Part shown: positions 6,916-17,146 of the stretch, piece by piece
Layout of the letters: each line of letters opens with the position of its first letter
Numbering within the stretch: position 1 is the first letter of the stretch
Source of the DNA: an uncultured Bacteroidales bacterium
GTDB lineage: Bacteria; Bacteroidota; Bacteroidia; Bacteroidales; Bacteroidaceae
Assembly (NCBI GenBank): GCA_902779085.1
Contig: CACYZY010000006.1
Coordinates: forward strand, 62,001-126,000
Length of the DNA stretch: 64,000 bases
Direction of reading: 5' to 3'
The notes under the pieces: model-generated
Databases searched by the model: none
What the model saw: the letters and a program-made list of their open reading frames with translations, nothing else
What the model was told of the DNA's origin: nothing
Made by a program: the position numbers and the translations under genes

Positions 6916-8169
6916 TTATTTTTTGTTTTGCATAAATTCTTTGATTGCCTCGTTTACATTCACTTTTTTGTCATTCTTGAAGGCAATGATGAAGGCATCT
7001 TTGAATTTGGCGGTTACTGTCTTTAGTTTGCTTCTAACAGCATTGTAATCTGTCGAAGCTCCATAAGTATATTTATATGTACCATTCTCCACATAATAAT
7101 CTACTGGTTGCAGCCCCTTCAAGCGTTTGTCGTTGTTGTTGAGTTTTGCAGAAGCTGTGAGGAACTGAATCTTGAACACAGGTGCATACCCTGTGGAAGT
7201 AGTTGTTTTTTTAGGTTGCTCCTTTGTTGTAGTAGCTTTCTTTGTGTCGTCCTTCTTGGTCTCAGACTTTACTGGTGCAGCCTTTGTAGCTGTAGATTTT
7301 GAAGGTTCAGCCTTAGGCGTAGGCTTTACATCAGCAATAGGTTTCACTTCCTCATCATCTGCAATAACCTTTGGAGCAGGTGAGTTGTTTACACTCGCTT
7401 CTCGAGCCTGTTGCTCAGTCTTGTATGCTAAGAAAGCATTGAAAATGCTATTGGCCATCGAACTGCTGCCTTCCTCGCTGATGAGGTATTTCTCTTCTGC
7501 CGGGGTTGAAATAAAACCGAGTTCCACCAACACGCTAGGCATCGAAGTGGCTCTCAAGACTAAGAATCCAGCTTGATGTACACCACTATCCACCCGTTTA
7601 CTGTTGCTCTTGAATTGTTGCTGGATCATTGATGCAAAGTGTACGCTCTGCGACATGAACTGGTCCTGCATGAACTCAAAAATAATATATGACTCTGAAG
7701 AATTAGGATCAAAACCTGCATAGCGGGTCTTATAATCGTCCTCGTACAAAATCACGGCATTCTCACGTTTTGCCACTTCTAAGTTGGCATCGCTACGAGC
7801 CAAACCTAATGTCCATGTGGAGGCTCCTCTTGCAGTATGATTATTGGCCAAAGCATTGGTATGAACAGAAATAAAGAGGTCAGCTTTTGCCTCGTTGGCT
7901 ATCTCTGCCCTTCGGTTCAAGTTTACAAATACATCCGTCTTGCGGGTATATATCACCTTCACATCATTGCACTTGCCCTCTATGAGTTTACCTAATTTCA
8001 GTGCTACTTTGAGGTTAATATTCTTCTCTTTGGCAGTTTTACCCACAGCTCCAGAGTCGTGTCCACCGTGCCCGGCATCGATTACTACCACAAAATCTTT
8101 GGCAGTTGCAGTTAGGAAGCAGCAACATAGCAACCAGACAATGCCTAATATGTGTTTATATGCAGTCAT
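6916..8169 (-). CDS. N-acetylmuramoyl-L-alanine amidase (Amidase_3) with SPOR-like C-terminus
   Basis: The enzyme cleaves the amide bond between MurNAc and the peptide stem in the periplasm, usually during daughter-cell separation. Residues 1-23 are a signal peptide (CCCFLTATAK). The zinc site is visible as DAGHGG (His), KEKNINL (Glu) and SVHTNA (His), and the catalytic glutamate sits in VELGFIS. A low-complexity linker rich in Lys, Thr, Pro and Ala (about residues 255-335) leads to a C-terminal SPOR-like or glycan-binding domain (PVFKIQFLTASAKL). It heads a two-gene unit with the MCE protein. At 417 residues it is normal for Bacteroidota. A promoter-like TAAATTTG lies on the minus strand at 8186-8193. 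Confidence 0.93.
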   Translation of the reverse strand: MTAYKHILGIVWLLCCCFLTATAKDFVVVIDAGHGGHDSGAVGKTAKEKNINLKVALKLGKLIEGKCNDVKVIYTRKTDVFVNLNRRAEIANEAKADLFISVHTNALANNHTARGASTWTLGLARSDANLEVAKRENAVILYEDDYKTRYAGFDPNSSESYIIFEFMQDQFMSQSVHFASMIQQQFKSNSKRVDSGVHQAGFLVLRATSMPSVLVELGFISTPAEEKYLISEEGSSSMANSIFNAFLAYKTEQQAREASVNNSPAPKVIADDEEVKPIADVKPTPKAEPSKSTATKAAPVKSETKKDDTKKATTTKEQPKKTTTSTGYAPVFKIQFLTASAKLNNNDKRLKGLQPVDYYVENGTYKYTYGASTDYNAVRSKLKTVTAKFKDAFIIAFKNDKKVNVNEAIKEFMQNKK

Positions 8170-8185
8170 ATTTTAAATTGCACTG

Positions 8186-8193
8186 CAAATTTA
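8186..8193 (-). promoter_or_regulatory. -7 promoter element of the amidase-MCE unit
   Basis: TAAATTTG on the minus strand fits TAnnTTTG and lies 17 bp upstream of the amidase start codon. No convincing -33 TTTG is seen. Confidence 0.45.
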
Positions 8194-8247
8194 ATTCAAA
8201 AATACTGAAATCTTGCTTTATTGCTTATGTTTTATCTCTAACATTTG

Positions 8248-8255
8248 TAATTTTG
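8248..8255 (+). promoter_or_regulatory. -7 promoter element of the HD-domain gene
   Basis: TAATTTTG fits TAnnTTTG and lies 18 bp before the ATG at 8274. The -33 box is not clear. Confidence 0.5.
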
Positions 8256-8273
8256 CACAAAAATTAAGAGAAA

Positions 8274-8822
8274 ATGGACACAAAATCGTTTCCTTACACT
8301 ATAATAGACAAGTATTATCCGGAGGAAAACCAGTTAAGGCATATCTTACTAACACATAGCGAGCAAGTGGCAAAAAAGGCCTTGCAAGTGGCAGATACTC
8401 ATCCTGAACTCCAACTTGATCGACAATTCTTGGAGGAGGCATCTTTGTTGCATGATATTGGCATTTTTCTTTGTGATGCACCAGGTATACAGTGTTTTGG
8501 CAGCTATCGGTACATCTGTCATGGTTATTTAGGTGCAGAATTGATGCGCCGTGAGGGATATGAACGCCACGCTTTGGTGTGCGAACGCCATACAGGAGCT
8601 GGGCTATCTCTTTCACAAATCGAAGTACAAGACCTGCCTGTACCCCATCGTGATATGTTACCTGTCAGTATGGAAGAGTTGGTAATTTGTTTTGCAGACA
8701 AGTTTTTCTCCAAGACCAAACTAAACGAAGAAAAGACAGTAGAACAGGCTCGCAGGAGCCTGCTCAAGTTTGGCGAAGAAGGGGTAGAACGCTTCGATCG
8801 TTGGTGCCAGATGTTCCTTTAA
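8274..8822 (+). CDS. HD-domain (HDIG) metal-dependent phosphohydrolase
   Basis: This 182-residue cytosolic protein carries the HD superfamily signature: an early histidine in LLTHSEQVAKKAL, the paired HD in ASLLHDIGIF, and later histidines in ICHGYLGAEL and CERHTGAG. HD proteins hydrolyse phosphoesters of nucleotides, often (p)ppGpp, cyclic nucleotides or dNTPs; the substrate here cannot be deduced. It is a single-domain HDIG protein without a synthetase or receiver domain. It sits alone between the divergent amidase gene and the LptD-like gene. The start codon is fixed by the promoter 18 bp upstream. Confidence 0.85.
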   Translation: MDTKSFPYTIIDKYYPEENQLRHILLTHSEQVAKKALQVADTHPELQLDRQFLEEASLLHDIGIFLCDAPGIQCFGSYRYICHGYLGAELMRREGYERHALVCERHTGAGLSLSQIEVQDLPVPHRDMLPVSMEELVICFADKFFSKTKLNEEKTVEQARRSLLKFGEEGVERFDRWCQMFL

Positions 8823-11678: not shown

Positions 11679-11739
11679 GTTTAATACTAGTAAAAAAGGG
11701 GTTTAGTACTAGTAAACTATCCGTTTAGTACTAGTAAAC
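11679..11739. repeat. Three palindromic repeats with a 22-bp period between lptD-like and ung
   Basis: Copies start at 11679, 11701 and 11723, exactly 22 bp apart. Copies 2 and 3 share GTTTAGTACTAGTAAAC (GTTTA...TAAAC arms); copy 1 differs by a G-to-A change and lacks the last C. The array fills the whole gap between the two convergent stop codons and ends in the ung stop codon. Confidence 0.85.
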
Positions 11740-12401
11740 TACCAAACAATCGGATCAATACCTTTTTGTTGCAGGTAGTTGTTGGCATGACTGAAGTGAT
11801 GGTTGCCAAAGAAGCCCCGATAGGCAGACAAGGGAGAAGGGTGTGCTGAGGTGAGTACCAGATGCTTCTGACGGTTGATGAATGCACCTTTTTTCTGAGC
11901 ATAGCTGCCCCAAAGTATGAATACCACATGTTCTTTCTCTGCGTCAAGGGTGCGAATCACAGCATCCGTAAAAGTTTCCCACCCTTTGTTCTGGTGCGAA
12001 CCAGCCTGATGCTCCCTAACTGTCAGGGTGGCATTGAGCAACAGCACACCTTGTTGTGCCCAGCGAGTGAGGTTTCCGCTTGTAGGTACAGGCGCTCCTG
12101 TATCATCGTGTATTTCCTTGAAGATATTTACCAAAGACGGAGGAAATTCTATTCCGTCGTTAACAGAGAAACACAGCCCATGCGCTTGTCCTGGCTCGTG
12201 ATAAGGGTCTTGGCCAATGAGCACCACCTTCACTTTGTCAAAAGGACAAAGGTTGAAAGCGTTGAAAATGAGCTTTCCTGGGGGATAGATACGATAGTGT
12301 TGGTATTCCGAACGCACAAAATTAGTGAGCTGCTCGAAATAAGGCTTATCGAACTCGGGTTGCAGCCTCGCCTTCCAACTATCTTCTATTTGTACGTTCA
12401 T
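11739..12401 (-). CDS. ung: Uracil-DNA glycosylase, family 1
   Basis: Ung removes uracil from DNA as the first step of base-excision repair. The 220-residue protein is full length and contains the water-activating motif GQDPYH (residues 63-68, catalytic Asp65), the Pro-rich uracil pocket region LINATLTVREHQ equivalent at about 120-132, and the C-terminal minor-groove loop HPSPLSAYRGFFG. It is convergent with the LptD-like gene and its stop codon lies inside the third 22-bp repeat. A minus-strand TATTTTTG at 12445-12452 is the likely -7 element. Confidence 0.97.
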   Translation of the reverse strand: MNVQIEDSWKARLQPEFDKPYFEQLTNFVRSEYQHYRIYPPGKLIFNAFNLCPFDKVKVVLIGQDPYHEPGQAHGLCFSVNDGIEFPPSLVNIFKEIHDDTGAPVPTSGNLTRWAQQGVLLLNATLTVREHQAGSHQNKGWETFTDAVIRTLDAEKEHVVFILWGSYAQKKGAFINRQKHLVLTSAHPSPLSAYRGFFGNHHFSHANNYLQQKGIDPIVW

Positions 12402-12444
12402 ACCTTTATTTATGTCGATTATTAAACTAAACTTTTATTCACTA

Positions 12445-12452
12445 CAAAAATA
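12445..12452 (-). promoter_or_regulatory. -7 promoter element of ung
   Basis: TATTTTTG on the minus strand fits TAnnTTTG. A TTTG is present on the same strand at 12469-12472, but the 16-nt spacing is shorter than usual. Confidence 0.4.
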
Positions 12453-12565
12453 ATTCTTATTATTGGTACAAACTTGTTTACGAGTGGTGTTTAGTATATT
12501 TTAACATAAAGAAGGTGTTCGTGGTAATAGCAGAGTTTCTTTTGGTTAGTTTTTCTGCACGAAGA

Positions 12566-12596
12566 TTGGTTATCTAAAGAAAAGAAGCTATCTTTG
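12566..12596 (+). promoter_or_regulatory. Promoter of the kinase/peptidase-PqqD-nucleotidyltransferase-ABC operon
   Basis: TTG at 12566-12568 and TATCTTTG at 12589-12596 are 20 nt apart, matching the Bacteroidota housekeeping promoter. The predicted transcript start lies only a few bases before the ATG at 12608, so the mRNA would be almost leaderless. Confidence 0.7.
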
Positions 12597-12607
12597 CCTT
12601 ACTATTT

Positions 12608-13969
12608 ATGGAAAAAGTTTATCAGTCATATTACTATCAAGTGGCAGGACTTCGCTTTTGCCTACGGCTTCCTGCAGATGACCCACTCTGTAGCCATTTG
12701 CAGCATTATGAGCCATTCATAGCAGATGATGAAAGCAACGAGGGGTTACTGTTTAGTCTACAAGTGTTTCCAGAAGGCACTCAAATGCCTTCAACGGGAT
12801 TGCCTTTTTTGACTACTTTTGAAGAAGAAGACAAAACCATTTCATTATACCACAATCAAGAAACGCAGGAAGACGGTTGCCCATACGATATTATCTATTC
12901 TTTAAAAGCGAGTCCGGCATCAGTTTGTCATTTGGAGGCCAGAGGTGACTTCAGTGAGGGTTATTTATGGACAGAAGGCGATTCCCATACACGCTATTTT
13001 GGTATGGAAAATGCATTGATGACCATGTTTGCATTTTCTGCTTCTAAGCAAGGGATTGCTTTGCAACATGCATCTGTAGTAACTAATAATGGGTTGGCTT
13101 ATCTTTTCTTAGGGAAAAGCGGTACAGGGAAAAGTACGCATAGTCGTTTATGGCTCTCCTACATAGCGGGTACTAGTTTACTTAATGACGACAATCCTGC
13201 TATTGGTATCGATAAGCAAGGAATTCCTAGAGTTTGGGGTACACCGTGGAGTGGCAAAACGCCTTGTTACATCAATGAGTCTGCTCCTATTGGTGGCTTT
13301 GTAAAACTTACCCAAGCTCCTTACAACAAGATAAAGCGTTTGGACACTCTCAATGCCTATGTGGCTTTGTTACCCACGGTTTCAAACATGAAATGGGAAA
13401 AGTCTGTTGGTAATTGCGTGAGCCACATTATTGAAAGTATTGTAGGTAAAACACAAGTGTTTCATCTTGAAAACCTTCCTAATGAAGAAGCGGCTAAGAT
13501 GAGCTATGAAGCTTTGACTGGACAACTTTTAAAGCATAAGATAACTATGCCCAACTCTATTCTTTTAGGAGATGTGAAACAACTCATTCAAGAAGGAAGG
13601 AAGGTAACGTTAAAAGTTAAAGGCAACAGCATGAGACCCTTTATTGAGGGTGACCGAGACAGCGTGATACTAATAGGTTGTGATAACTATCAACCTGGAG
13701 ATATTGTATTAGCTGAGATATCCGAAGGAAACTTCGTACTTCATAGAATCGTTCAGATAAATGAAAAAGAAGTGATACTGATGGGAGATGGTAACTTGGC
13801 TAAGAAAGAGAGTTGTAACATACAAAATTTAATTGCAAAAGTTGAAACTATCATAAGGAAAGGCAAACAGATAAATCCAGATGCTTGTGGACAGAGAGCT
13901 TTAGCTAAGATTTGGAACTCATTGAGCCCTATTAGGAGATATCTGCTGGCCATTTATAGAAGAATATAA
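12608..13969 (+). CDS. HPr-kinase-like / signal-peptidase-like (S24/S26) fusion protein
   Basis: The 453-residue protein joins two domains. Residues about 130-310 resemble HPr kinase/PEP-carboxykinase-type kinases found beside peptide-tailoring genes: P-loop GKSGTGKST (169-177), LLNDDNP (191-197) and GTPWSGK (211-217). Residues about 315-420 resemble a Sec11/SipW-type serine peptidase: KGNSMRPFI with Ser341, PGDIVLAE, LHRIV with His379, and MGDGN. The Ser-His pair suggests an intact peptidase, but no transmembrane anchor is seen, only a basic amphipathic tail (IRRYLLAIYRRI). It is first in an operon with a PqqD-like protein (13 bp gap), a nucleotidyltransferase and an ABC exporter. Related kinases in lasso-peptide clusters phosphorylate the precursor; its substrate here is unknown. 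Confidence 0.8.
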   Translation: MEKVYQSYYYQVAGLRFCLRLPADDPLCSHLQHYEPFIADDESNEGLLFSLQVFPEGTQMPSTGLPFLTTFEEEDKTISLYHNQETQEDGCPYDIIYSLKASPASVCHLEARGDFSEGYLWTEGDSHTRYFGMENALMTMFAFSASKQGIALQHASVVTNNGLAYLFLGKSGTGKSTHSRLWLSYIAGTSLLNDDNPAIGIDKQGIPRVWGTPWSGKTPCYINESAPIGGFVKLTQAPYNKIKRLDTLNAYVALLPTVSNMKWEKSVGNCVSHIIESIVGKTQVFHLENLPNEEAAKMSYEALTGQLLKHKITMPNSILLGDVKQLIQEGRKVTLKVKGNSMRPFIEGDRDSVILIGCDNYQPGDIVLAEISEGNFVLHRIVQINEKEVILMGDGNLAKKESCNIQNLIAKVETIIRKGKQINPDACGQRALAKIWNSLSPIRRYLLAIYRRI

Positions 13970-13982
13970 AAATGAAGGAATT

Positions 13983-14252
13983 ATGAAGATAAAGAAAGGT
14001 TTTGTATTGCGAACAATCGGCAATGAACAAGTAATTATTGGTGAAGGCATTGAGCAAGTGGATTTCAACAAAATCATAAGATTAAACACTACGGGAGTTG
14101 ATTTGTGGAATGAGATGCAAAAAGGTGTTTTTACCACTGCCTCCATTGCGAACTATATTATGGAGAATTATCAAGGTGTAGATGAGAAGGCAGCTACGGC
14201 AGATGCTCAAACCTTTATAGACCGATTGTGCCAAGCTGGGTTATTGGAATAA
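13983..14252 (+). CDS. PqqD-family peptide-recognition protein (RRE-like)
   Basis: This 89-residue protein matches the PqqD fold: a beta-rich start (KKGFVLRTIGNEQVIIGEG), the conserved turn IIRLNTTGVDLWNEM, and helical segments ending FIDRLCQAGLLE. PqqD and its relatives bind the leader of ribosomally made peptides and present it to modifying enzymes, and stand-alone copies are typical of lasso and radical-SAM peptide clusters. It sits between the kinase/peptidase fusion and the nucleotidyltransferase with gaps of 13 and 3 bp, so all are translated from one mRNA. No PQQ genes are present, so cofactor synthesis is unlikely. Confidence 0.88.
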   Translation: MKIKKGFVLRTIGNEQVIIGEGIEQVDFNKIIRLNTTGVDLWNEMQKGVFTTASIANYIMENYQGVDEKAATADAQTFIDRLCQAGLLE

Positions 14253-14255
14253 ACC

Positions 14256-15359
14256 ATGAATAATACAGACATTAAATGGGCAATCCTCCGCATGGGATTA
14301 TGGCATAGGCATGAAGAGATTGATGCCACTGCCATTGATTGGAATCAGTTATTAGCATGGGCTAAGAAGCAGACTCTTTTGGGTATCCTGTTTGATGGTA
14401 TCATGATGCTACCAGCAGACCAACGGCCTGATGAAAGCACTATGATGAAACTGACCATGTGGATGGCCAAGAATCGACAAACCCACGTGCGGCTCAATCA
14501 TCAGGCGTCGAAGATGATGCGTATTTTAGCAGAGCACGATATACCAAGTATGCTTTTAAAAGGTCAGGGTATTGCTCAAGAGTATCTCTCTCCTGAAAGC
14601 AGACAGTGTGGTGACATAGACTTGTATATCGGACGAGAAAACTACAAAAAGGCCTGTGACTTAGCTATGGGAATGGAAATTACTAACCCAGATGAGAAAG
14701 TCAAGCATACAGACTTTATGTGGGAAGGGGTAGAAATTGAATTGCACCATAAAGCTGTCGATTTGCCTTCGAAAAAAGCGGAAAGATATTTTGAAGAGTG
14801 GGCATTAGAAATATTAAAGCACGACACACGTAGTTTTATTCCTCAAAACGAGACATTCCCTATTATATTACCATCTGTACAGTATAATTCTATTTATATC
14901 TTTATACATATGTTCCATCATCAATTAACTGAAGGAGTAGGGCTTCGTCAGATATGTGATTGGATGATGGTTTTGCACAATGGATATGGAACTATAGATT
15001 TGGATTTATTGGAGAAACAACTAAATATGGCCCATTTAATGGAAGTATGGCAAGTGATGGGGACTATTCTTGTCAATTATTTAGGTTTGCCTTCAGAAGA
15101 AATGCCTTTTTATAAACCTGAGATGCTGACCAAAGGAGAGAAATTATTAGGACTTGTTGATGAGGGAGGTAATTTCGGGCGAGGCATTAATAAACCACGC
15201 AAAGAATACAAGTTTGTTATTCAAAGGAAAATTGATAGCTTTATTAGGATGATAAAGAAGGATATGCCGATGCTTAGGATTTGTCCTTCATATACACTGT
15301 ACAACTTTTCTTACTACTTTATCCAGCACATAAAGTTATGGGTAATTGACCATAAGTAG
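14256..15359 (+). CDS. Nucleotidyltransferase-family protein (NTP_transf_5-like)
   Basis: The 367-residue protein has a nucleotidyltransferase core of the type found near peptide- and polysaccharide-tailoring genes: MLLKGQGIAQEYLSPESRQCGDIDLYIG (metal-binding Asp pair in GDIDLYI) and VEIELHHKAVD, followed by a helical C-terminal half (LLEKQLNMAHLMEVWQVMG). Such proteins are encoded beside HPr-kinase-like and PqqD-like genes in several phyla, and are thought to modify a peptide or sugar with a nucleotide or phosphate. The exact reaction is not known. It begins 3 bp after pqqD and ends 6 bp before the ABC transporter gene. Codons are rich in A and T compared with the flanking genes. Confidence 0.8.
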   Translation: MNNTDIKWAILRMGLWHRHEEIDATAIDWNQLLAWAKKQTLLGILFDGIMMLPADQRPDESTMMKLTMWMAKNRQTHVRLNHQASKMMRILAEHDIPSMLLKGQGIAQEYLSPESRQCGDIDLYIGRENYKKACDLAMGMEITNPDEKVKHTDFMWEGVEIELHHKAVDLPSKKAERYFEEWALEILKHDTRSFIPQNETFPIILPSVQYNSIYIFIHMFHHQLTEGVGLRQICDWMMVLHNGYGTIDLDLLEKQLNMAHLMEVWQVMGTILVNYLGLPSEEMPFYKPEMLTKGEKLLGLVDEGGNFGRGINKPRKEYKFVIQRKIDSFIRMIKKDMPMLRICPSYTLYNFSYYFIQHIKLWVIDHK

Positions 15360-15365
15360 AGAATA

Positions 15366-17006
15366 ATGAAGACAAGAAGTTTATTATGGCTTTGGAAATT
15401 GACTGCAGGAATCAGAGCAAAACTGTTTGTCAATTGCTTTTTAGGGATTATCAGAATATCCGCATCTTTGGCATTTATCTATACAAGTAAACTGCTGATT
15501 GATGCTGCTACATCTTCTGATATTCAACAAGCCCATAGTATTACTTCCCTCTCGATATTTCTAATTATCCTCTTTATAATTCAAATCTATTCTGGCTTAG
15601 CAACTTCGTGGTATAGTAATCAAAACGAGGTTAAAACCAAGAACATGATTCGCCAACGGCTTTTTGAACACTTGTTGAGAGCAAAGTGGAGTGGGATGGA
15701 GGTTTTTCATAGTGGCGATATTCTGAACAGACTGGAAGAAGATGTAAGATTAATTGCTGATACATTAAGTCGCACACTTCCTGAAATAGCTGTTGCTTGT
15801 TTCAATTTATTGGCAGCATTCATCTTCTTGTGGCAACTCAATCATTCTCTAGCATGGGCGATTATAGCTATTATGCCTGCTTTCTTATTAATCAGTAAGG
15901 TTTATATCTATAAGGTTAGAACTCTCACACATGATATTAGGGAAACAGACAGTCAAGTGCAGAGCGTCATCCAAGAGAGTATTCAGCATAGACTCTTAAT
16001 TCAGACCATGCAGCAATCCGACCTCATTGGTGACAAACTGAGTGGTTTGCAGGATATCCTTTATAATCAAACTTTGCGTAGAACGCGATTTACCGTTTTT
16101 TCTAGGGCAATGGTCACTTGCGGCATTGCTGCCGGTTACCTGTTCACCTTCCTTTGGAGCATACAGCAACTACACTTAGGTTTGATTACTTATGGTACAA
16201 TGGCCGCATTCCTGCAGTTGGTTACCCAAATACAGCGCCCAACAGTAGAACTGACCAGGCTGTTGCCTAGTATCATTCATGCAACTACCTCTGCTGATAG
16301 GCTCTTGCAGTTATCCGATATCCCCTTGGAGAATGATTTGGAGGGAGGAGTAATATTAGAAGGCCCAGTGGGAATCCAACTATCAAATGTTAGCTATAAG
16401 TACCCACAAGGAGAACGGGCCATCTTCCAACAATTTTCTTATCATTTCAATCCAGGAAGCAGGACTGCTATTGTAGGAGAGACAGGCGTTGGTAAAAGCA
16501 CATTATTCAGATTGATATTAGCTTTACTTACACCCGATCAGGGCGATATTATCTTACAGAGCAAAGATAAGGATTATCCTATGTCTCCAAGCTTAAGAGG
16601 GAACATCGCTTATGTCCCACAGGGGAACACCTTGTTGAGTGGTACTATCAGGCAAAACCTTCTATTAGCCAATCCTCTTGCAACAGAAGAGGAGTTGCGA
16701 CATGCTTTATATACTGCTTCAGCAGAATTCGTCTACAAACTCCCTAATGGTTTAGATACTATATGCGGTGAGAAAAGCGAAGGATTAAGTGAAGGACAGG
16801 CCCAGCGAATAGCGATAGCTAGAGGTTTGTTGAGACCTGGCAACATTATGCTTTTCGATGAATTTAGTGCTTCGTTGGATTTGGAAACGGAGAAGGTATT
16901 GATAACTCGTTTGTTAGAAAACTATCCCCAGAAAACCATGATTTTTATTACGCATCGCGACCATATACTGAAGTATTGCAGTGACGTAATCAGATTAAGC
17001 TTTTAA
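15366..17006 (+). CDS. ABC exporter, fused membrane and ATPase domains
   Basis: The 546-residue half-transporter has an N-terminal membrane domain with about six helices (for example ISASLAFIYTSKLLIDA and FLIILFIIQIYSGLA), and a C-terminal ATPase with Walker A GETGVGKST, a Q-loop near VPQGNTL, signature LSEGQAQRIAIARGLL, Walker B IMLFDEFSASLD and switch histidine ITHRD. The signature reads LSEGQ instead of LSGGQ. No N-terminal C39 peptidase domain is present, so any leader removal would have to come from another protein such as the peptidase-like domain of the first gene. It is last in the operon and likely exports its product. Confidence 0.9.
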   Translation: MKTRSLLWLWKLTAGIRAKLFVNCFLGIIRISASLAFIYTSKLLIDAATSSDIQQAHSITSLSIFLIILFIIQIYSGLATSWYSNQNEVKTKNMIRQRLFEHLLRAKWSGMEVFHSGDILNRLEEDVRLIADTLSRTLPEIAVACFNLLAAFIFLWQLNHSLAWAIIAIMPAFLLISKVYIYKVRTLTHDIRETDSQVQSVIQESIQHRLLIQTMQQSDLIGDKLSGLQDILYNQTLRRTRFTVFSRAMVTCGIAAGYLFTFLWSIQQLHLGLITYGTMAAFLQLVTQIQRPTVELTRLLPSIIHATTSADRLLQLSDIPLENDLEGGVILEGPVGIQLSNVSYKYPQGERAIFQQFSYHFNPGSRTAIVGETGVGKSTLFRLILALLTPDQGDIILQSKDKDYPMSPSLRGNIAYVPQGNTLLSGTIRQNLLLANPLATEEELRHALYTASAEFVYKLPNGLDTICGEKSEGLSEGQAQRIAIARGLLRPGNIMLFDEFSASLDLETEKVLITRLLENYPQKTMIFITHRDHILKYCSDVIRLSF

Positions 17007-17072
17007 AACTGTAGTAGTCTCTTTCGAAGGATAAGAATCCCCACAAGCAGATACTTATGGGGATTAATTGAG

Positions 17073-17146
17073 TGACCCGGGCGGGATTCAAACCCGCGAC
17101 CTTCAGAACCGGAATCTGACGCTCTATTCAGCTAAGCTACCAGGCC
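17073..17146 (-). tRNA. tRNA-Arg (anticodon CCG)
   Basis: The minus strand folds as a full cloverleaf: acceptor GGCCTGG with CCGGGTC, D arm GCTTAGCTGAATAGAGC, anticodon stem TCAGA/TCTGA with loop TTCCGGT (anticodon CCG at 17110-17112), T arm GCGGG TTTGAAT CCCGC and discriminator A. CCA is not encoded. It reads the Arg codon CGG. Confidence 0.95.

Follow-up and report, generated by a model that had tools for sequence, protein, structure and literature searches.

The closest described systems to the operon reported here are lasso peptide clusters that encode a kinase and a nucleotidyltransferase (paeninodin PadeK, ThcoK, and BsfK; pseudomycoidin PsmK/PsmN). These clusters have in common with it a PqqD/B1-like protein, an HprK-like kinase with a His-Lys-Asp-Asp set, a nucleotidyltransferase, and an ATP-binding cassette (ABC) exporter, as well as precursors with a YxxP leader and a conserved Ser at a like spacing. 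The lasso leader motif, YxxPxL, is reported to be bound by the lasso PqqD/B1 proteins (PMC10368454), and the His-Lys-Asp-Asp set is reported to be required in lasso peptide kinases, as judged from mutants (PMC9266682). PsmN is reported to add hexoses onto the phosphorylated Ser of pseudomycoidin (PMC9266682; PMC7533575). The operon considered here encodes a kinase-peptidase fusion, a PqqD-like protein, a nucleotidyltransferase, and an ABC exporter, and it lies in the window, a 64,000-nucleotide stretch of contig CACYZY010000006.1 from an uncultured Bacteroidales bacterium. Judged from its sequence, it is probably a tailoring and export machine like those of ribosomally synthesized and post-translationally modified peptides (RiPPs), one that acts in trans on precursor peptides coded elsewhere in the chromosome. 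Operons with PqqD and without a neighbouring precursor are hard to interpret; here, candidate substrates can be named in the same genome, and the substrate question becomes a simple binding and mass-spectrometry test.

Architecture of the Operon

Four open reading frames (ORFs) on the + strand, 12608–13969, 13983–14252, 14256–15359, and 15366–17006, are separated by spacers of 13, 3, and 6 bp, a packing that a first-pass annotation of the window had described in the same terms. The part names given there, a kinase-like/peptidase-like fusion, a PqqD-like protein, a nucleotidyltransferase, and an ABC exporter, agree with the family matches.

12566..12596, + strand: promoter-like TTG / TAnnTTTG, presumably of the Bacteroides type (TTG at 12566, TAnnTTTG at 12589–12596, read from the sequence)
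12608..13522, + strand: HprK/PEPCK-like kinase domain, residues 1–305 (H154, K175, D194, and D195 invariant; profile matches)
13523..13969, + strand: S24/S26 signal-peptidase-like domain, residues 306–453 (conserved Ser341 and His379)
13983..14252, + strand: predicted PqqD-like leader-recognition protein, 89 residues (Pfam PF05402, 4.9e-12)
14256..15359, + strand: NTP_transf_5 (PF14907) nucleotidyltransferase, 367 residues (Pfam, 1e-41; GDxD at 119–122)
15366..17006, + strand: ABC exporter, permease and ATPase fused (Pfam ABC_membrane and ABC_tran)
17036..17065, unstranded, called on the − strand: terminator-like hairpin after the operon

The first gene starts at 12608, and position 12566, with which the first-pass annotation opens the operon, belongs to the promoter pattern. 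Terminator-like sites in the operon region number two versus a shuffle mean of 3.1, no excess over shuffles.

The kinase label of the first protein derives from weak profile matches together with conserved residues. Residues 128–195 match PEPCK_ATP at 18.6 bits, under the Pfam cut-off of 26.5, and the NCBIfam matches to ScmC, HprK_rel_A, and HprK_rel_B are weak and far under their cut-offs; no variation is seen at the P-loop or at H154, K175, D194, and D195, either in 29 aligned rows or in the 54 rows of a kinase-only alignment. Residues 311–404 match Peptidase_S24 above the Pfam cut-off (7e-6), with Ser341 and His379 conserved in alignments, and the best NCBIfam match of this domain is an archaeal-type signal peptidase, under the cut-off. 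In nearly all relatives, the kinase and the peptidase are separate neighbouring genes, and the fusion seen in the window is an unusual state. Since the two domains are joined in one protein, a common substrate that both would meet is suggested. The best solved match of the PqqD family profile is TfuB1 (PDB 6jx3, 4.7e-6), the GDxD motif of the nucleotidyltransferase is kept in aligned relatives, and no C39 peptidase is among the Pfam matches of the exporter. The genome that contains the window (2.6 Mb, 39 contigs, 90% complete) holds one copy of the kinase. It also holds a weak second PqqD-like ORF (L264:8517–8855, C13; 20.7 bits, under the cut-off), which adjoins a transporter-like gene, with no kinase or peptidase nearby.

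A Dispersed Family of Candidate Precursors

ORFs of at least 20 residues were considered in the flanks of the operon, with the ends of large neighbouring ORFs set aside. Those located in or extending into 12402–12607 (20, 42, and 36 residues) and 17007–17072 (33 and 48 residues) are chance-like, and the short distance from the promoter pattern to the ATG at 12608 leaves no room for a leader gene. No ORF of the window matches the precursor family described below at E 0.1. The first-pass annotation, which had seen no small precursor ORF in the flanks or between the genes, was correct on this point.

When 1513 small ORFs from 116 loci were clustered with blastp, no recurrent family emerged near exporter cassettes. 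Clustering with phmmer, applied to the 706 small ORFs located at most 2 kb from cassettes in 108 loci, did reveal one; the family was missed by blastp owing to the method, phmmer being the more sensitive. PqqD was recovered as a positive control with 89 members in 88 loci. The most widespread family besides PqqD spans 13 loci and is accompanied by a related group of three, the next families spanning 3 loci; one sequence in the 13-locus group, L217|148, looks spurious and was left unused. A search for short ORFs with a PqqD-binding leader, which the first-pass annotation had proposed, has thus turned up a conserved family, one that is unlinked to the operon of the window.

The members of this precursor family are mostly 34–72 residues long from the likely start and are composed of a Tyr-x-x-Pro leader, a conserved Ser, and a variable tail. 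A profile of 34 members, searched at E 0.01 against 157 genomes of the genus, matches in 65 of them, with six matches in the window's own genome, all unlinked to the operon. These six candidates are 36–43 residues long from the Met nearest the leader; three of them are longer if read from the earliest possible start. YxxP is present in all six, with the leader consensus Y-[EA]-A-P-[EQ]-[VC]-[QE]-V-I-E-[ML]-E-[VL]-Q-G-M-I-A-A-S. The first reads MKQTYEAPEVQVIEMEVQGMIAAS-TDGLTLPGYAPGTVPEP; the other five have the same leader and tails of 9–17 residues. The Tyr-to-Ser segment has a mean identity of 0.86 over the 15 pairs (minimum 0.70), versus 0.10 in the tails. Each of the six lies 9–42 bp upstream of a gene for a protein of 321–673 residues with a lipobox-like start, and three of these pairs stand in tandem. 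The relative G731 (L308) retains the first precursor-lipoprotein pair with its tail nearly unchanged, indicating that this tail goes with the locus.

The 159 loci contain 28,862 small ORFs, 42 of which are members of the family, as opposed to none among the same ORFs reversed. A large ORF on the same strand is found just downstream of 36 of the 42 members versus 1161 of 3405 other intergenic small ORFs, and, by a simple pattern, the downstream ORF is lipobox-like for 29 members versus 227 of the 3405. In 40 members, the Ser/Thr follows the Tyr at a distance of 19 or 20 residues, a spacing that the profile itself favours; in L092 and L223, where the automatic count missed the site, a Ser lies 19 or 20 residues from Tyr by eye. 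None of the 34 profile members matches NCBIfam at E 0.01, and the three tested against Pfam have no match at E 0.1. The GG-type precursor family TIGR04149 has no match in the window's genome and none in the controls either, so that its absence carries little weight.

Within the genus, the precursor and the nucleotidyltransferase tend to occur together. Both are found in 60 genomes, the precursor only in 5, the nucleotidyltransferase only in 17, and neither in 75 (Fisher p 1e-21); when the 17 genomes that fed the profile are set aside, the counts are 43, 5, 17, and 75 (Fisher p 1e-16). The two samples compared comprise 157 and 158 genomes, so that a count may be off by one. In the 22 genus genomes named in the search with the fused protein, the precursor is present in five of six with the kinase and in none of 16 without it. 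Among the five precursor-only genomes is G731, in which the operon is largely lost and a single precursor copy persists. No precursor match is seen in G774 (74% complete), and G749 (59% complete), possibly the genome outside the sample, is not among the positives.

Kinase Relatives and Locus Types

A query with the fused protein gives matches in 242 of the 301 genomes sampled from the family. The kinase profile matches in 11 of 395 genomes of a phylum sample, six of the 11 being weak matches in other families. The kinase tree comprises 114 loci: 40 of type A, 47 with an exporter, 11 with an exporter and a nucleotidyltransferase, 4 with a nucleotidyltransferase alone, and 12 with none of these. 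The kinase of the window clusters with that of L072 (support 99/81), likewise a nucleotidyltransferase-exporter locus, and cassettes of such make-up recur in many genomes. Within the stretches compared, the precursor family is represented near 17 of 38 genus loci and 8 of the 47 exporter loci without a nucleotidyltransferase.

In type A loci, the gene order is sigma factor, secreted protein C2, sometimes clostripain, kinase, peptidase, and PqqD. C2, encoded 5′ of the kinase gene in 40 loci and separated from it by clostripain in some of these, was considered as a substrate and rejected as an obligate partner: every one of 21 tested genus genomes has it, although 16 of them have no kinase match to the fused-protein query, and in the window's genome it sits apart from the operon. 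C2 has ~150 residues and the motif VYxFGxxxxFxDSxxYxTxIQ, and it is found beside a sigma-70 gene (for example, L054:7746–8177 and, in the window's genome, L190:5947–6360); the two examples scanned contain no Pfam family above the cut-off. Secreted peptidases were also examined as partners, and 5 of 10 scanned upstream genes encode M6, C10, or C1 peptidases, with none among ten further neighbours. The exporter cassettes of L086, L091, L126, L150, and L090 lie directly 3′ of such peptidase genes, which are of three unrelated kinds (M6; C10 with a Spi inhibitor; C1).

Other variations in gene arrangement are observed. In L226, a radical S-adenosylmethionine (SAM) gene (7253–8347) lies between the kinase and PqqD genes in the usual place of the peptidase, and Wza/Wzc-like genes adjoin. 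In L077, L078, L095, and L118, the peptidase gene is divergent from the kinase, on the opposite strand. The exporter cassettes of L116 and L149, on Fibrobacter-labelled contigs of metagenome-assembled genomes, fall inside the Prevotella-like part of the kinase tree, a placement that reflects either gene transfer or a binning error.

Polysaccharide Neighbourhoods and Lipoprotein Pairing

Polysaccharide context was defined as at least two polysaccharide genes, detected with iterated profiles from nine annotated or recognised seeds. It is found at 14 of 38 genus loci and 4 of 14 other nucleotidyltransferase loci versus none of the 40 type A loci, none of the 47 exporter loci without a nucleotidyltransferase, and 1 of the 12 remaining loci. 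The 38 genus loci include the window, the deleted locus L198, and L221, which has no nucleotidyltransferase match; three loci are counted in both nucleotidyltransferase groups (L072/L191, positive; L128/L192 and L134/L199, negative). In L220, the entire cassette sits between glycosyltransferases and Wza/Wzc-like genes.

These neighbourhoods are the main argument for a machine that acts on surface polysaccharide. In it, an activated sugar-phosphate would be produced or transferred by the kinase and the nucleotidyltransferase, and a flippase for lipid-linked or capsular material would be provided by the ABC protein. We consider this unlikely. The PqqD-like protein and the protease would have no evident task on sugars, and the window locus is itself negative, its neighbouring genes not being polysaccharide genes. 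The short-ORF family with its PqqD-type leader accompanies the nucleotidyltransferase, and in L226 the radical SAM gene replaces the peptidase. Homologs that consistently lack a small peptide gene and sit in polysaccharide loci had been named by the first-pass annotation as evidence against its claim; this is borne out in part by the genus and other nucleotidyltransferase loci counted above, yet in 8 of the 14 genus loci (weakly in L221) the compared stretch contains a member of the short-ORF family as well. The unlinked peptide that it had proposed is indirectly supported by the six unlinked YxxP-leader ORFs, their variable tails, and the association with the nucleotidyltransferase, and is disfavoured by the polysaccharide context of the 14 genus loci and the 4 others. 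The non-peptide substrate that it had offered as an alternative is weakened, although polysaccharide context speaks for it.

A second alternative places the paired lipoproteins at the centre: the machine would modify them, or would attach the short peptide either to these lipoproteins or to a polymer of the cell surface, and the short ORF would be an adaptor or tag never secreted alone. The pairing of the short ORF with a lipoprotein-like gene in 29 of the 42 members, including all six of the window's genome, is consistent with such a role. However, constant leaders followed by variable tails typically identify leader/core precursors, and the cassette has its own exporter; we regard this alternative as quite improbable.

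Insertion Site and Selection

The operon as a whole is bordered by two features that are adjacent in several relatives.

11739..12401, − strand: gene that we take to be ung (uracil-DNA glycosylase), read from the sequence; left border of the insertion
12411..17066, unstranded: inserted segment of ~4.66 kb with the entire operon (L238 joins 12410 to 17067 with no gap)
17072..17146, − strand: tRNA-Arg (ccg); right border of the insertion

Nine relatives, L233 to L241, were compared at this site. In five of them (L235, L236, L237, L238, and L239), ung directly adjoins tRNA-Arg, and these empty junctions indicate that the operon arrived as one ~4.66-kb segment. Beyond the four genes of the operon, the segment has no space for an integrase gene. 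L240 and L241 contain no operon sequence in the stretch compared, and the site is rearranged in both. A partial operon remains at the site in L198 (G749), L233 (G774), and L234 (G731). The kinase-peptidase is missing from both L198 and L233, together with most of PqqD. L198 has an intact nucleotidyltransferase, and that of L233 is truncated at the contig end. The exporter is present as fragments only in L198, and L234 retains just its C-terminal half. Upstream of the operon, the sister locus L198 aligns with 90.9% identity across window positions 11707–12600.

The surviving nucleotidyltransferase and exporter frames are under purifying selection. The nonsynonymous (dN) and synonymous (dS) rates are 0.032 and 0.274 for the nucleotidyltransferase of the window versus L198 (dN/dS ~0.12) and 0.013 and 1.26 for the C-terminal half of the exporter versus L234 (dN/dS ~0.01), each from one pair (NG86). 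The operon has thus experienced selection yet is dispensable. A degraded lasso peptide locus, reduced to tailoring remnants with no working product, is very improbable: the tailoring set resembles that of lasso loci and three relatives at the same site retain parts only, but all four frames are open, both dN/dS ratios are low, and cassettes of the same make-up recur elsewhere.

Proposed Mechanism

In the reading that we favour, a RiPP-like machine acting in trans, the PqqD-like protein would bind the YxxP leader of each precursor, and the HprK-like kinase would phosphorylate a hydroxyl residue, most likely the conserved Ser 19–20 residues after Tyr. The nucleotidyltransferase would decorate the Ser phosphate, as PsmN reportedly does for pseudomycoidin. 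The fused S24/S26-type peptidase would remove the leader near the junction of the small residues and Ser. If lasso leader spacing holds, with Tyr at −17, the cut would fall after the Ile of GMI-AAS, and the conserved Ser would be Ser3 of the core; cleavage immediately N-terminal to Ser, alternatively, would fit an enzyme of the signal-peptidase kind. The ABC protein would export the core, and the paired secreted lipoprotein would probably act as the receptor, carrier, or immunity partner for the peptide encoded with it.

Several observations weigh against this reading. Among solved structures, the kinase profile best matches the P-loops of ABC transporters (E 0.007), with an HPr kinase at E 0.96; the nucleotidyltransferase profile has chance-like matches only, and the peptidase profile has none. 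The precursor profile grew from ORFs near cassettes, and the 42 members are composed of its own 34 rows, the six of the window's genome, L308, and the weak one in L221. The Fisher test treats genomes as independent and ignores relatedness, 17 nucleotidyltransferase-positive genomes have no precursor at E 0.01, and five precursor-positive genomes have no nucleotidyltransferase. A linked precursor is found in none of the 40 type A loci, the genomes of which were not searched for unlinked members, and 17 distinct related loci sit among polysaccharide genes. The six precursors of the window's genome do not conserve the Leu of YxxPxL, having Val (two precursors) or Cys (four) at that position. In one lasso peptide study, single changes of Tyr(−17) and Leu(−12) are reported to have left phosphorylation intact, and leader cleavage to have survived single and double changes, with the triple change alone hampering it (PMC10368454).

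More tentatively, the system may represent a novel RiPP-like class in Bacteroidales, in which one mobile cassette would serve, in trans and chromosome-wide, linear peptides with lasso-type leaders. These peptides would carry a phosphate or a nucleotide/sugar-phosphate on the conserved Ser near the N terminus, and each would be matched to its own surface lipoprotein as a secreted ligand-receptor or peptide-immunity pair. If the favoured trans-acting reading holds, RiPP machinery can act in trans on many dispersed Bacteroidales precursors, each tied to a surface lipoprotein, and searches confined to enzyme neighbourhoods would miss such precursors. Among the open-access papers searched, with subscription papers and preprints lying outside the search, no title on this cassette in Bacteroidales was found. 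A Bacteroidales RiPP survey mentions PqqD a single time, among its references (PMC10352776).

Comparison with Known Systems

By analogy, the operon would work like the tailoring arm of a lasso peptide cluster, yet it falls outside lasso membership, since no Transglut_core3 protease was found, PqqD scores under the lasso cut-offs, and no cyclase is present in the operon. The lasso B2 protease family Transglut_core3 (PF13471) has no match at E 0.01 in the window's 90%-complete genome, while 3 of 14 control genomes are positive. The asparagine-synthetase-like lasso cyclase is absent from the operon, the whole genome not having been searched for it; both absences accord with the first-pass annotation, which had noted that the cyclase and the transglutaminase-like protease were lacking. 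Against the NCBIfam models of lasso B1/PqqD chaperones, PqqD scores 25.8 of 70 and 22.4 of 80 bits, under the cut-offs. The window further differs from lasso clusters in that its peptidase is S24/S26-like, its candidate precursors are several, unlinked, and lipoprotein-paired, and the leader Leu is replaced by Val or Cys.

Two other systems contain an HprK-like protein with a PqqD-like protein. In the SynChlorMet cassette, these stand side by side as in the window, and the relative L226 adds a radical SAM protein. ScmC, which we take to be kinase-like, and ScmD are matched at 23.4 of 125 and 16.1 of 100 bits, and the window operon is without a radical SAM gene. The HPr-rel-A system pairs HprK-related kinase A with PqqD_rel_X and is linked to polysaccharide loci; we know of no substrate for it. 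The TIGR04352 kinase model of this system is matched at 12.3 bits of the 200 needed.

Clusters with an orphan RiPP recognition element (RRE), of which 153 are reported to have been counted in Hungate1000 (PMC13289728), are marked, as is the window operon, by a PqqD/RRE protein; for the window operon, a dispersed precursor family is proposed. Two features by which RiPP systems are recognized are present here, namely precursor ORFs with a conserved leader and a variable core and PqqD as the predicted leader-recognition protein. On these grounds, the system is best read as a RiPP variant with putatively trans-acting machinery and dispersed, lipoprotein-paired precursors.

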